Assembly: GCF_019264445.1 (NCBI RefSeq) | Contig: NZ_JAHVAB010000028.1 | Location: forward strand, 1-64,000 | DNA length: 64,000 nt | Direction of reading: 5' to 3' | Source of the DNA: Hydrogenophaga sp. | GTDB taxonomy: Bacteria > Pseudomonadota > Gammaproteobacteria > Burkholderiales > Burkholderiaceae_C | Shown here: piece after piece, positions 53,289 through 58,580 of the stretch | How positions within the stretch are numbered: position 1 is the stretch's first letter | How the letters are laid out: every line of letters begins with the position of its first letter | Notes under the pieces: model-generated | What the model was told of the DNA's origin: nothing | What the model saw: only the letters and a program-made list of their open reading frames with translations | Databases searched by the model: none | Program-made: the position numbers and the translations under genes

Positions 53289-54386
53289 TCACTGGGTGGC
53301 AGGAGCCGCCGCAGCGGGCGCGGCAGCGGGGCCGTCCGTGGGCGCGGTGGCCATCTTCTCGAAGGCGGTGCGCAGCGCGGCCAGGCCCGGCGAGTCTTTC
53401 AGCATCGGGGCGCCAAACACGGGCTTGTACGCGCCCTGGTGGCAGGTGGCGCAGTTGAGCTTGGCCACGTCGCCCAGCTCGCCCTTGCGGTTGGGCGGGA
53501 AGGTGTCGGTGAGCGGCAGCATGTGCTCGTTGTTGAGCGCCTGCACCATGCGGATGCCGTGGTACGCCGTGACGCGCTGCGGCGGGCCGCCTTCCCATTT
53601 GCCAAACGACTGCGTGGCGTGGCAGAAGGTGCAGTTCACCCCGAGCGAGGCCGACATGTGCGTCATGAGCGAGTAGGTTTTCTCGGTCTGCGCGATGCTG
53701 GCCTTGTGGTCGGTCGGAAGCGCCTTGGTCGCTGCCACGCGGATCGGTTCCTTGCCCAGAAGGTAGGACGAGAAGGGGTCGTAGGGCAGTGAGGCCAGCT
53801 TGACGCTGGACGCGGGCGTGTTCTGCCGCATCTTGTTGCCGATGAAGTCCGCGCCGGCGTTTTGCGGCACGGGCTTGAACCAGACGAACTTGGGCACCGG
53901 TTCCCCGCGGTGGCAGGTGAAGCAGGTCACGCCGGTGGTCGACACGTGGTTCTTCCAGTCGGCGTTGATGGTCTGCGTCATCTTGATCATGTCGCGCGCC
54001 ACCAGCTTGGTGTACAGGCTGTCGTCGGCAAAGTTGGCGGCGTTGTGGCAATGCACGCAACCCTTTTCAGGCGCCACCCATTGCGTCATGGAGGCCATCA
54101 GGTTGGTGAAGTCGCCCACGCTCAGGTGGCCCAGCACCTTCACGTTCTGGTACACGTCGCCGGCCTTGGGGCCTTCGGGCGAGGCGGGCGGTGGCGGGGC
54201 GGGGGGCTGGTTGGCCTCGATCACGCCTTCCATGATCCGCGGGTTGTAGACCTGGACCATGCCGGTGCCGCGGTAGCCGTTCTGCACTGTGTCCATGGGT
54301 GGGCGCTCGCAGGCCGTCAGCAGCACCAGGGAGCCCAGTGCCAGCAGGCGGAGCCAGCCAGAGGAGGTGATGTGCTTGGGGTTCAT
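53289..54386 (-). CDS. pufC: Reaction-centre tetraheme cytochrome PufC
   Basis: A 365-residue periplasmic lipoprotein and direct electron donor to the special pair. Signal peptide with lipobox LLTAC, lipidated C26. Four c-type heme sites: CVHCH (110-114), CFTCH (155-159), CTFCH (252-256) and CATCH (312-316). A proline-rich linker ([13 protein letters not shown]) follows the anchor and an Ala/Pro tail ends the protein. The start at 54386 overlaps the pufM stop by four bases. Confidence 0.97.
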
Positions 54387-55363
54387 TTCGCGCCTCCCGG
54401 GGTCAGGGCTGGGTCCATCACGGCTGGGAACACGTCGGGGTAGGGCGGCGCCACGCCATGCTTGATGGCCCAGAGGTACCAGTTGTCCACCACGGTGCCG
54501 CTCAGCAGGATGCCGATGCCGCCCACCAGCGGGCACAGCACGGCGAACCACCAGGCCCAGCGGTGGATGGATTCCATCGTGGCGTTGAAGCCCATGGTCC
54601 AGCGCCAGAACAGGGCCGCGCGCTCGCTGGCGGTGCCGCGGTCCACGATCTGCTCGATCTCGCGCTCGCCGCCAAAGCGGCTGACCGCAAGGATCGTGGC
54701 ACCGTGCATCGCGAACAGCAGCGTGGCGCCGTAGAGGAACGCGATCGAGAGCGCGTGGAACGGGTTGTAGAACAGGTTGCCGTAGCGCAGCGAGAAGGCC
54801 GCCGTCCAGTCCAGGTGCGGGAAGATGCCGAAGGGCACCGCCTCGCTCCACGAACCCATGAGCACCGGGCGGATGAAGCCCAGCACCAGGAACAGCCAGA
54901 TGGCGGCGGCAAAGGCCCAGGCCACGTGCGTGCCCATGCCGAGCTGGCGCGCGCGGGTGTAGGTGCGGGCCCACCACAACAGCACCGAAGCCGTGAGGAA
55001 GCCGCCGGCGATCAGCCACCAGCCGCCGTCGTTGAGCGGTGGCAGCGACAGCCCGTATTGCGCAGACGGTGGCTCCAGCGCGAGCCAGAACAGCTGCCGC
55101 ACGAACTGGATCGGGTCCCAGTTCACCGAGGCGAGCATGTTCAGGCCGATGATGTTGAAGGCCAGCACGCCGAAGATCAGCGAGGCGATGCCCAGTCCAC
55201 CCAGGTAGATCGGACCGATCTGGGCGTTGCCCAGGCGACCGAACAGGTGAACGATGGCCGGCTCCTTGCCGGTGCGCGGGCTGTTGCCATGCGGCAGCGG
55301 CACGCCGTGGTGCAGCGGCCCGGTGGCCTGCACGGTGGTGAAGAGGTTCTGGTATTGCGCCAT
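54383..55363 (-). CDS. pufM: Reaction centre M subunit
   Basis: 326 residues, five transmembrane helices. Ligand residues align one position after the Rhodobacter numbering: H183 (accessory BChl), H203 (special pair), H220 and H267 with E235 (non-heme iron). The C-terminus is longer than in Rhodobacter ([20 protein letters not shown]), as in species with a bound PufC. It follows pufL by 22 bases. Confidence 0.98.
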
Positions 55364-55385: not shown

Positions 55386-56225
55386 TTATTTCAAAGGCCA
55401 CTGGGCCCAGATCGGCATGTTCAGCCACCAGCCCCACCACTCGGGCCAGCCTCGGCTCCAGAACGGTCCGCTGATGACGATGCACAGCGCGCTGAAGAGC
55501 ACGGCGGCCAGCGCCAGGAACAGGCCCAGGCGGTGGATGCCCAGCGTGCCGATGGAGTAGCCGATGGTGTCGCGGAAGAAGGTGTCTTCGTGCTCGGGCG
55601 TCTTCACCACTTCGCCCTTCTTGGGGTTGGTGGCCGAGAGGATCAGCGAGCCGTGCAGCGAGAGCGCGAAGGTGGTGGCGAAGAAGAAGCTCACCGCGAT
55701 CATGTGCGCCGGGTTGTAGTGGAAGTGCAGGTACTGGTAGCCCACGTTGGACACCCAGTCGAGGTGGCTGAAGATGCCGTAGGGGAAGCCGTGGCCCCAG
55801 GCCCCGAGCAGCACCGGGCGGATCACCACCAGCGTCACGTAGGCCAGGATGGCCACACCGAAGGCGGCGGGCACGTGGTAGCCCATGCCCAGTTTTCGGC
55901 AGATCTCCACCTCGCGCAGCGCCCACGACACGAAGGCGCCGATGGCACAGACGGTGATGAGCTGCCACAGGCCGCCTTCCATGAGCGGCGCGAAGCGCAG
56001 GCCGTAGGACAGGTCGGGCGGTGCAATGCTGATCTGCCAGAGGTTCCAGGTGGGGCCTTGCGAGGCGCCCCAGAGGATCATGGCGGTGCCCAGAAACGCG
56101 AAGAAGAGCGTGGTGACGCCGAAGAAGCCGACGTAGAAGGGACCCACCCAGAAATCAAACAGGTCGCCGCCCAACAGGGTGCCGCCGCGGACGCGGTATT
56201 TTTTCTCGAAATTGAGCATGGCCAT
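55386..56225 (-). CDS. pufL: Reaction centre L subunit
   Basis: 279 residues, five helices. H154 (accessory BChl), H174 (special pair), H191 and H231 (iron) correspond to Rhodobacter H153, H173, H190 and H230; the [20 protein letters not shown] segment is nearly invariant. AGGAGGGTC precedes the ATG at 56225. A stable hairpin separates it from pufA. Confidence 0.98.
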
Positions 56226-56284: not shown

Positions 56285-56321
56285 CAGATGCTGCGCCGCC
56301 CGATGGGCACCGCAGCATCTG
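56285..56321 (-). promoter_or_regulatory. pufA-pufL intercistronic hairpin
   Basis: CAGATGCTGCG (56285-56295) pairs perfectly with CGCAGCATCTG (56311-56321); inside, GCCC (56298-56301) pairs with GGGC (56305-56308) around GAT, giving one long 37-base hairpin. There is no T-run. Hairpins at this place in Rhodobacter block 3' decay and keep the pufBA part of the mRNA abundant, which sets the high LH1 to reaction-centre ratio. Same role inferred. Confidence 0.8.
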
Positions 56322-56338
56322 CACACCTCGTGCGACGT

Positions 56339-56539
56339 TCAGGACGTCTTCGAAGGCGTTGCTGCGGGCATCGGTGCGAGTTGCGCCGAAGCTGCCGGGG
56401 CCTTTTTCGGGCCGTCGAGCCAGTTGAACTTGTTGGTGCTCAACAGGATCAGGTGAATCATGGCTGCGAGTGCAAACAGGAACACTGCCTGCGCGACCAT
56501 GGTACGGAGGGGGTCGAAAAGACGCCAGATTCTCCACAT
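56339..56539 (-). CDS. pufA: Light-harvesting 1 alpha polypeptide
   Basis: 66 residues: [20 protein letters not shown], the bacteriochlorophyll ligand H29 with A25 four residues before it, and W40 at +11 which tunes absorption. A C-terminal extension rich in Ala/Pro/Lys ([19 protein letters not shown]) is probably removed or disordered in the periplasm. SD AAGGAG lies eight bases upstream and touches the stop of the preceding 74-aa gene. Confidence 0.96.
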
Positions 56540-56551
56540 GATGTTTTCTCC

Positions 56552-56776
56552 TTAGATCAGTTGGGACATGACCGTGTAAACCGCGGCATGCACGCCCGAG
56601 AAAATGCTGGTCTTGTGTTCTGCGCCAGGCAGCCATTCCCGCCAGTGCATGCCCACCAGCTGGCCAAACAAGGCAGCCGAGAGCAGCAGCAGAAAGCACG
56701 GCACAAAGATCAGGACAAACGACAGCTTGTCTTCCCGGTGAGTGGGCTTATGGGTCTCATAAGACACGACGTTCAT
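56552..56776 (-). CDS. 74-aa single-helix protein between pufB and pufA, unassigned
   Basis: A gene inside the LH1 operon. ATG at 56776 with GGAGA seven bases upstream; TAA at 56552, 12 bases before pufA. A charged N-terminus (THKPTHREDK), one long membrane helix (LSFVLIFVPCFLLLLSAALF, residues 18-37, extending to 42), then a periplasmic part with HWREWLPGAEHK and a second amphipathic helix (SGVHAAVYTVMSQL). It lacks the A-xxx-H chlorophyll site of LH1 subunits. A faint PufQ-like pattern (HR..xL.F.LIF) is seen at the helix start, but PufQ normally precedes pufB. Could be a PufQ relative or an extra core-complex subunit analogous to PufX or protein W. Confidence 0.75.
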   Translation of the reverse strand: MNVVSYETHKPTHREDKLSFVLIFVPCFLLLLSAALFGQLVGMHWREWLPGAEHKTSIFSGVHAAVYTVMSQLI

Positions 56777-56815
56777 GGCAGTTCTCCAATCATGAAAAGT
56801 GAAGCCGGTCTTGAC

Positions 56816-56959
56816 TCAGAGCCAGGGCCGCCAGAACCACACCAGCGCATGGGCGACCACGGCAATCGCCGTGAACCCAATGAAGCCCTGGATGTAGTAC
56901 TGGTGGAACTCCTGAGCTTCCTCGTCGGTCAGGCCGGAAATCGATGTCCGTGTTGCCAT
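56816..56959 (-). CDS. pufB: Light-harvesting 1 beta polypeptide
   Basis: 47 residues. H19 and the bacteriochlorophyll ligand H37 (A33 at -4) with the typical [17 protein letters not shown] and the C-terminal [10 protein letters not shown]. The ATG at 56959 follows GAAGGAG. It is the first puf gene, 139 bases after bchZ, and is separated from pufA by the 74-aa gene, unlike the usual adjacent pufBA. Confidence 0.96.
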
Positions 56960-57098: not shown

Positions 57099-58580
57099 TC
57101 ATGCGGGCTCTCCCAGGCCGAGTTCGCGGCCTGCGGTGTTCACGTGGGTGTCGCTCACGGCGCCATCGCCGCTGTCGCGCGCATGCTGTTCGGCGGCGTC
57201 GCGCAGCCGCTTGGCCACCGAGATCTGCACCAGCACCGGCTGGTTCGAGATGAGGGTGTGCAGGCGGGTCTGGGCGCTGTCTTCCCAGGGCGTGGCCAGG
57301 CCGGCGGCGGCGCCGCGTGCGAGCGTGGGGTCGACCTTGTCCATGTCGGTGCCCAGCGGCAGAATGTGGAACAGCGCGTCAAACAGCGCGTTGCACACCT
57401 CCTGGATCAGGTAGGTCGCGCCGCTGTAGCCCATGAAAGGCGTACCGGTGTGGCGGCGGATGATGGCGCCGGGGAACGAGGCCGGGATGAAGGCCGCGCG
57501 CATCGGGCCTGTGCTCCCCGCCTCGGCCAGGTACATGCGCTCGTTGTAGCTGCCAAACAGGATCAGCGGCGTCTGCGTTTTCACCAGCTCGCGCACGGCG
57601 GCGTTGTCGGTCTTTTCACCGGCCTTGCGCGAGACCGCAAAGCGGCAGGGCAGGCCCATCTCGGTGTCCAGGAAGTGCTGCAGGCCGCGTGCGTAGGTGC
57701 CGTTGGCCACCACCGCAAAACTCGCGGTGGCAAAAAAGTCTTGCGTGACCGAGCGCCACAGGTCCCACACCGGTTTGATGGTGGTGTGCTTCTCGCGCTG
57801 GATGAAGGGCTCGGGGTCCAGGCCCAGCAGCTCGCCGAGCGCGCGCAGGAATTTGGTGGTGCTGTGCAGGCCGATGGGCGCCTGCAGGTAGGGCCGGTCC
57901 AGCGCCTCGCAGAGCATGCGGCCGAACTCGCGGTACATGCAGATGTTCACGTCGGCCTCGACCAGGCGCGAGACTTCCGAGAGGTGGCTGCCCAGCGGGA
58001 ACACGAGGTTGATCTCCGCGCCGATGCCCTGCACCAGGCGGCGAATTTCGGCCAGGTCGCTGGGACCGTTGAACACGCCGTAGCTCGGGCCGATGATGTT
58101 GACGCGCGGCTTCTCGCCGGCAGGGCGCTCGGCCAATGGCTTGCGCGCCGGCACCTTCTTCATGCCGTATTCGCTCCAGAGCCAGAACATCGCGCGGTCG
58201 GCGCATTGCCACTGGTCTTCGTCGATGGTGCGCGGCAGGAAGCGCATGAGGTTGGTGCCTTCGGGCGTCACGCCGCCGCCGATCATTTCGGCAATCGACC
58301 CGGTGACCACCACGGCGGGCAGCTCGGGGTCGAGCACCGCGTGGGCGCGCTTCATCGAGCCTTCGGTGCCTTCACGGCCCAGCTGTTCTTCGGCCAGGCC
58401 GGTCACCACAATGGGCAGCTCGTGCGGCGGGAGCGCGTCGGTGTAGTGCAGCACGCTGGTGACCGGCAGGTTCTCGCAGCCCACCGGGCCGTCGATGACC
58501 ACCTGCAGGCCCTTGATGGCGGTGAACACATACACGGCACCCCAGTAGCCGCCGGCGCGGTCGTGGTCAAGCACCAACAT
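57099..58580 (-). CDS. bchZ: Chlorophyllide a reductase subunit Z
   Basis: 493 residues, nitrogenase-like. [20 protein letters not shown] with its cluster cysteine, [20 protein letters not shown] and [20 protein letters not shown] are conserved. With BchX and BchY it reduces the B ring of chlorophyllide to make bacteriochlorin. Overlaps bchY by 14 bases. Confidence 0.97.

Follow-up and report, generated by a model that had tools for sequence, protein, structure and literature searches.

The 74-codon gene that lies between pufB and pufA in a photosynthesis locus of Hydrogenophaga sp. almost certainly encodes a paralogue of the LH1 beta subunit, to judge from profile comparisons: one that has lost the ligand for bacteriochlorophyll (BChl) and has kept or acquired a conserved C-terminal helix. 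We tentatively propose, by analogy, that this ligand-less beta acts in LH1 biogenesis, with a role as a subunit of the RC-LH1 complex as a close rival. Beta-paralogue identity coupled with a biogenesis function is the best explanation as a whole, and one to which we give about an even chance. Three elements are new: the beta ancestry with ligand loss, the membership of a family shared with the gene found in the pufQ slot of other proteobacteria, and the alternation with a long form of beta in the bacterial family sampled. Together they would provide an origin and a testable role for an ORF left without a function in a model purple bacterium, and they predict that the core complex of freshwater phototrophs has a component or a helper that has so far escaped notice. 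They also indicate that a protein derived from the antenna can do without its pigment ligand and yet stay in step with the antenna across much of a bacterial order, and they suggest a possible origin of PufQ, whose role was long debated.

The gene, its locus and its conservation

In the window (the whole stretch of 64,000 nucleotides that was analysed), the minus strand carries the gene order bchX-bchY-bchZ-pufB-ORF-pufA-pufL-pufM-pufC. The names pufB, pufA, pufL and pufM are based on family matches; the genes that we take to be bchX, bchY, bchZ and pufC are named from the usual gene order. All features given below are on the same strand. The ORF (56552..56776), delimited by the ORF list and profile searches, has an ATG start, 74 codons and a TAA stop, as the preliminary description had stated. 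Its product, MNVVSYETHKPTHREDKLSFVLIFVPCFLLLLSAALFGQLVGMHWREWLPGAEHKTSIFSGVHAAVYTVMSQLI, is an LH1-beta-like protein with Gln39 at the ligand site. The ORF also has its own Shine-Dalgarno sequence, as had been claimed: GGAG (56784..56787), read 7 nt ahead of its ATG. On its upstream side lie pufB (56816..56959), which encodes a short-form LH1 beta of 47 aa with the C-terminus WRPWL and matches Pfam LHC, and, 139 nt before pufB, bchZ (57099..58580). On its downstream side lie pufA (56339..56539; LH1 alpha, 66 aa, Pfam LHC match) and, by family match, pufL (55386..56225) and pufM (54383..55363), encoding reaction centre subunits L and M.

The junction with pufA is tight. The pufA Shine-Dalgarno sequence AAGGAG (56548..56553, by sequence reading) overlaps the ORF stop codon TAA (CTGATCTAAGGAGAAAACATCATG), so the earlier observation that the stop touches the pufA ribosome site holds, and the geometry is conserved: this Shine-Dalgarno sequence overlaps or abuts the ORF stop in 43 of 54 loci, and the gap from the stop to the pufA ATG is 10–17 nt in all 54. 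Judged from this arrangement, translational coupling of the ORF to pufA is probable. ORF74 of Roseateles depolymerans is reported to be co-transcribed with pufBA (PMC10037100), and output of the ORF product would be expected to be in proportion with PufA. Intergenic RNA folding placed a strong hairpin in the pufA–pufL gap (56286..56320; −51.6 kcal/mol for the intergenic RNA, z −2.7 against mononucleotide shuffles), which might form the 3′ end of the pufB-ORF-pufA mRNA or stabilise it. The C-terminus of PufA in the window (56339–56539) contains LAPMPAA and fits the motif [A/S]-[P/A]-[L/M/I]-P, which has been tied to binding of the PufC cytochrome (PMC9640540).

The gene is widely conserved. We sampled 399 genomes of the same bacterial family, of which 64 have pufL/pufM and are counted here as phototrophs. 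A profile search detected the ORF in 54 of these 64, always in the order bchZ-pufB-ORF-pufA-pufL-pufM; at E≤1e-3, 55 of the 399 genomes matched, the additional match being one long pufB. In its own genome the ORF is single-copy (E 1.5e-47). In an order-wide sample, 54 of 399 genomes matched the ORF profile at E≤0.01. Forty-four of the matches had E≤2.6e-15 and were spread over ten families besides the family of the window, and the remaining ten were pufB, upstream-gene (see below) or chance matches. Neighbouring genes were read for five of the ten further families, and all five have the pufB-ORF-pufA arrangement. When loci from all search routes were pooled (193 loci, some of them one genome reached twice), 191 showed this arrangement and the other two were truncated by contig ends. 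Homologues occur at loci named Limnohabitans, Rhodoferax, Rubrivivax, Piscinibacter and Hydrogenophaga; the closest named isolate is Hydrogenophaga flava, whose ORF is 91% identical. Candidatus Fonsibacter lacus is an alphaproteobacterium; one record under this title (L113) has a betaproteobacterial-type locus and is probably a mislabelled or contaminated bin.

The ORF is under purifying selection, with dN 0.044 and dS 0.246 against a 91% identical congener (dN/dS ~0.18) and dN 0.136 and dS 0.504 against a second congener (dN/dS ~0.27). Selection and the presence in most family phototrophs bear out the view of the preliminary description that this is a real gene. The idea of a non-functional relic or spurious reading frame could draw on the small size of the ORF and its lack of a Pfam family, and on nothing further; set against purifying selection, the gene order retained at every pooled locus not cut by a contig end and transcription in Roseateles (PMC10037100), it is scarcely credible.

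The preliminary description called the gene unassigned. This stands for its function, since no role is known for ORF2 of Rubrivivax gelatinosus or ORF74 (RD2015_RS05155) of Roseateles depolymerans, but the gene itself has already been described. ORF2 is located upstream of pufA (PMC12817894, which cites its 1994 description by Nagashima et al.), the locus tags put ORF74 between pufB and pufA (PMC10037100), and we infer from position and homology that both are the present gene. Accordingly placed homologues were found between pufB and pufA in two R. gelatinosus loci and one R. benzoatilyticus locus, and the Hydrogenophaga ORF shares the position, the length of ~74 aa and the homology that define this group. 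An ORF1 has been placed before pufB in R. gelatinosus (PMC12817894); our R. gelatinosus loci yielded no counterpart, every frame of the upstream or PufQ type scoring below 14 bits. In Roseateles depolymerans, a further gene (ORF77, RD2015_RS05175) lies between pufM and pufC by locus-tag order and is listed as also SP70-dependent (PMC10037100 Table 2). The window has pufC directly after pufM, with no room for a counterpart of ORF77.

Kinship with the LH1 beta subunit

Searches of PDB pointed to antenna proteins. With the ORF protein as a query, phmmer matched LH1 beta chains (best E 3.4e-7). A family profile, built from 44 of the 54 family ORF sequences after removal of near-duplicates, matched 45 distinct chains, the first 40 of which are all antenna chains (best E 1.5e-16), mostly named beta, with a few named antenna alpha/beta subunit or light-harvesting protein. 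Profile–profile comparison by hhalign gave a probability of 99.1% with long PufB (E 4e-19, 66 columns) and 97.1% with short PufB (E 5e-11). The score of 92.7 against long PufB compares with a maximum of 26.0 in 40 column permutations of the target, and that of 52.2 against short PufB with a maximum of 16.1 in as many. Permutations of long beta that preserved hydrophobicity reached at most 18.3 in 60 trials, far below the real score, and therefore hydrophobic composition does not explain the match. Moreover, the ORF profile also scores the adjacent pufB in many of the same genomes.

These results overturn the claim that the ORF is not a duplicated antenna gene. The observation behind that claim was correct, as ALFGQ occupies the site aligned with the LH1 A-xxx-H motif; homology extends across the transmembrane domain of LH1 beta and the histidine of the motif is absent. 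The loss of His is divergence and no argument against beta ancestry. Among the closest known proteins is long-form LH1 beta (for example chain B of PDB 8z81 and, from Rhodopila globiformis, chain B of 7xxf), which is collinear with the ORF protein over the transmembrane helix, the WRPWLPG turn and much of the tail. The ORF protein differs in having neither the ligand His nor the N-terminal signature of beta, GLT..EA.EFH.

Family databases were less sensitive. Pfam and NCBIfam scans assigned the window protein to no family; Pfam LHC matched 11 of the 44 family members (best 4.4e-6), the window protein not among them. Unrelated membrane families appeared at similar E-values in a few members (DMT_YdcZ 1.2e-5, DUF2567 4.9e-5), and Pfam on its own is weak evidence for LHC kinship. 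An origin from PufX or from PufA was rejected. PufX, named as an analogue in the preliminary description, gave hhalign probabilities of 0.8–3.4% with a score no higher than those of permuted targets, and the Pfam scan found it weakly in one of the 44 members (E 0.27). For PufA, the probability was 8–13% and the score 18.4, compared with a permuted maximum of 16.8. It is with PufA that ORF2 has been compared in the literature: it was aligned with PufA1 and PufA2, with 10.1–14.5% identity to PufA2 and the missing His noted, and section 8 of that article contains no comparison with PufB (PMC12817894). In the open-licence literature searched, we found neither the beta kinship of ORF2 or ORF74 in print nor a paper that tests the role proposed here.

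The protein is predicted to form helices at residues 13–48 and 58–73 (low-confidence model, mean pLDDT 62.6). The second helix is amphipathic, since only 0.96% of 5000 shuffles reach its hydrophobic moment, and across 138 family proteins the median rank of this moment is 3.7% (300 shuffles each). The long helix and amphipathic tail helix of the preliminary description are thus corroborated. By analogy with beta, the C-terminal helix would be periplasmic. The net charge flanking the first helix averages −0.3 before and +0.8 after it, values that do not by themselves support a beta-like membrane pose. A Foldseek search of PDB with the predicted model returned no match, a result that is uninformative because the model is a low-confidence two-helix chain.

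Conservation is concentrated in the C-terminal half. Among the 138 unique proteins, W45 is kept in 137, P50 in 137, G51 in 138, E53 in 134, V62 in 138, Y67 in 135 and S71 in 137, and the consensus of the tail reads WRxWLPGAE...S...GV..AVYT.MS. The BChl-ligating His site is occupied by Gln in 116 of the 138 and by Thr, Lys, Ala, Leu, Ser, Cys, Glu or Gly in 20; the remaining two have residues outside these types, and one of the two or both probably carry His, as L049 does, so that His occurs in at most two. Tryptophan is retained at +6 from the ligand site in 137 proteins and at +9 in 129.

Relatives in the pufQ slot and alternation with long beta

The pufQ slot is the position between bchZ and pufB. 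In a number of proteobacteria it holds a gene, referred to here as the upstream gene, which matches the ORF in hhalign with 98.5% probability (E 1.5e-15), permuted targets scoring far lower. Within the class, we found the upstream gene before pufB in the genomes G903 and G810, which belong to other orders, in the gammaproteobacterium Thiodictyon, where it is annotated only as hypothetical, and in G466, G583 and G613, all from a single further Burkholderiales family. Outside the class it is present in the alphaproteobacterium Methylobacterium aquaticum and in six genomes that are probably alphaproteobacterial (G1215, G1329, G1351, G1336, G1224, G1284). In a tree of 74 columns, unrooted and with long branches among the upstream genes, 22 ORF and 13 upstream rows (Thiodictyon and Methylobacterium included, G115 not) were separated from 37 PufB rows with 100/100 support. 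That the ORF and the pufQ-slot gene of other proteobacteria constitute one family is thus well supported at the sequence level. The ORFs group with the upstream genes rather than with PufB, which led us to reject a recent duplication inside Burkholderiales.

One genome of the window's own family, G115, has a family member in the pufQ slot (L089, C13:44399-44578) and none between pufB and pufA; this gene scores 43 bits against the upstream profile (E 5.0e-9). It strengthens the reading of the ORF as a displaced gene and has no bearing on the choice between a biogenesis factor and a subunit. A second, upstream family member at ≥14 bits was found in none of the 193 ORF loci, some of which are cut. 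We also screened 4 genomes from the family of G810 and 53 from that of G903, both sets taken irrespective of phototrophy; no upstream genes turned up beyond those two, the exception being one weak match (E 0.0066) with two stops. The upstream relative in G810 (L206/L212) has FAH at the ligand site, and the ligand His may survive in some members.

The preliminary description had also considered a displaced PufQ relative, which is right insofar as profile comparison, tree and the G115 gene relate the ORF to the occupant of the pufQ slot. Likeness to true PufQ is much fainter. PufQ has ~74 aa and one helix and belongs to the puf operon, and the nearest family of the ORF occupies its slot. However, the ORF itself stands after pufB, not between bchZ and pufB, and the window protein falls below the gathering score of Pfam PufQ (PF05398). 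In eight genomes searched, its own included, nothing exceeded that cut-off, and neither of two upstream relatives matched, whereas three true PufQs used as positive controls scored 59.8–137 bits. Direct hhalign comparison of the ORF with PufQ gave 43–50%, with a score of 24.3 against a permuted maximum of 15.0 and at most 19.2 in 60 hydrophobicity-preserving permutations. The upstream family came closer (83–90% over 63–65 collinear columns; 31.5 against 17.3, the best of 60 hydrophobicity-preserving permutations), and PufQ against PufB gave 0.4–6%. In a 65-row tree with eight Rhodobacterales PufQ sequences, ORF, upstream genes and PufQ were separated from PufB with 98/94.8 support, the PufQ branch being very long; a grouping of upstream genes with PufQ (96/22) is not established. 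It is possible, on these weak sequence matches, that true PufQ is a remote relative of the ORF family. According to published surveys, Chromatiaceae and Ectothiorhodospiraceae lack pufQ (PMC8877833), as do those NOR5/OM60 and Sphingomonadales clusters that a second study covered (PMC3176799). At another locus (L207 of G1041, 1003–1303), a frame before a long pufB is weakly similar both to the upstream profile (13.1 bits) and to PufQ (8.1 bits); it may be an intermediate between the two.

We next turn to the form of beta. Among 62 informative family phototrophs, beta is short in 55, of which 54 carry the ORF and one the pufQ-slot gene; in the other seven, both genes are missing and beta is long and tailed. 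The rule that a genome has the ORF, the pufQ-slot gene or a tailed beta thus holds in 62 of 62. Outside this set are G209, cut by a contig end, and G374, with no pufBA beside pufL. In the latter (L095, contig C3), the pufL match does not start until model position 65, and the search ahead of it revealed no pufBA; this puf operon reflects a rearrangement or misassembly. The beta of the seven ORF-less phototrophs has an intact AH motif and a tail of ~27 residues after WRPWL, and pufA comes next. Whole-genome searches of these seven with the ORF and upstream profiles found the long beta and otherwise weak matches only (E 0.01 or more), and the gene is therefore dispensable where beta is tailed. 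Conversely, PufB ends 1–4 residues past the last PW motif in 191 of 192 ORF loci with a readable pufB, the other one being unscored by the pattern. Outside the family the alternation is not exclusive, as several loci combine an upstream gene with a long beta; in four loci (L209, L210, L223, L275) beta is short and we found no relative within the stretch examined. By parsimony on a PufL–PufM tree, at least three changes are needed to account for the exchange of long beta with the pair of ORF and short beta. We do not claim repeated swaps because well-supported branches force only one and the end branch L094 is unreliable.

Possible functions of the ORF product

In the mechanism that we tentatively favor, the beta-like helix would enter the membrane next to PufA or the growing ring in the manner of a beta, taking up no pigment, with the tail in the periplasm. 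The conserved tail would bind a fixed partner, for example the machinery for assembly or pigment supply, or RC-LH1 on its periplasmic face, and pufA-coupled translation would keep the product proportional to alpha. The protein would then act in LH1 assembly or pigment supply. We favor biogenesis because kin of the ORF sit in the pufQ slot; the argument is one of analogy only, drawn from the shared gene slot and the weak PufQ likeness. PufQ itself is known to steer porphyrin flux in Rhodobacter sphaeroides, where its deletion lowers BChl and it co-precipitates with ferrochelatase (PMC5725709).

Somewhat less probable, in our estimate, is that the product is a stable, previously unseen subunit of the betaproteobacterial RC-LH1, either a blank beta at one ring position, which would create a quinone gap, or a multi-copy gamma-like helix between betas. 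That the gene is dispensable where beta is tailed, and that it belongs to the abundant pufBA transcript, would be expected of a structural subunit no less than of a factor. A beta-type helix, the coupling geometry with pufA and the co-transcription with pufBA in Roseateles (PMC10037100) are likewise what a subunit would have. The long beta of the seven ORF-less genomes suggests that the tail acts at or in the ring. Gamma-like helices are already known to stand between betas, with 11 copies in Rhodopila globiformis (PMC9640540). On the other hand, no solved chain in the profile search ranked above ordinary antenna chains and no ORF2 chain was seen, though betaproteobacterial RC-LH1 may not be among the solved complexes, and the combination of an upstream relative with a long beta in some other proteobacteria also speaks against a subunit.

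We consider it unlikely that the ORF represents PufQ proper in betaproteobacteria, with an action via ferrochelatase at the point where the haem and bacteriochlorophyll pathways diverge. The slot occupied by its closest relatives, the PufQ match of the upstream family and the joint split from PufB would agree with such a role. Nevertheless, the direct ORF–PufQ match reaches only 43–50%, PufQ gives no more than 0.4–6% against PufB and sits on a very long branch, the Pfam PufQ searches were negative, and the C-terminus of PufQ is predicted to be cytoplasmic, opposite to that of beta (PMC5725709). Least probable of the functional readings, and very doubtful, is that the product is still an antenna beta in which Gln, directly or via water, ligates a BChl of altered site energy. 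Gln can ligate chlorophyll in plant antennae, and both its predominance at the ligand site and the retained tryptophans at +6 and +9 would fit; a pigment site should not, however, tolerate the eight other residue types that replace Gln in 20 of the proteins.

A more speculative reading, which we think improbable as a whole, is that puf operons of Proteobacteria carry an overlooked family of fossil ligand-less betas that includes PufQ. The Burkholderiales member would have moved between pufB and pufA, become coupled to pufA and taken over the periplasmic tail lost by the antenna beta, and would serve as a blank beta in nucleating, capping or opening the LH1 ring. PufX, protein W, protein U and the gamma subunits are likewise small single-helix accessory proteins of RC-LH1. 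The likeness is one of functional analogy only, and PufX, the one of them that we compared by sequence, shows no sequence relation. The core structure of Halorhodospira halochloris reportedly features a "protein Q" and a "protein G".
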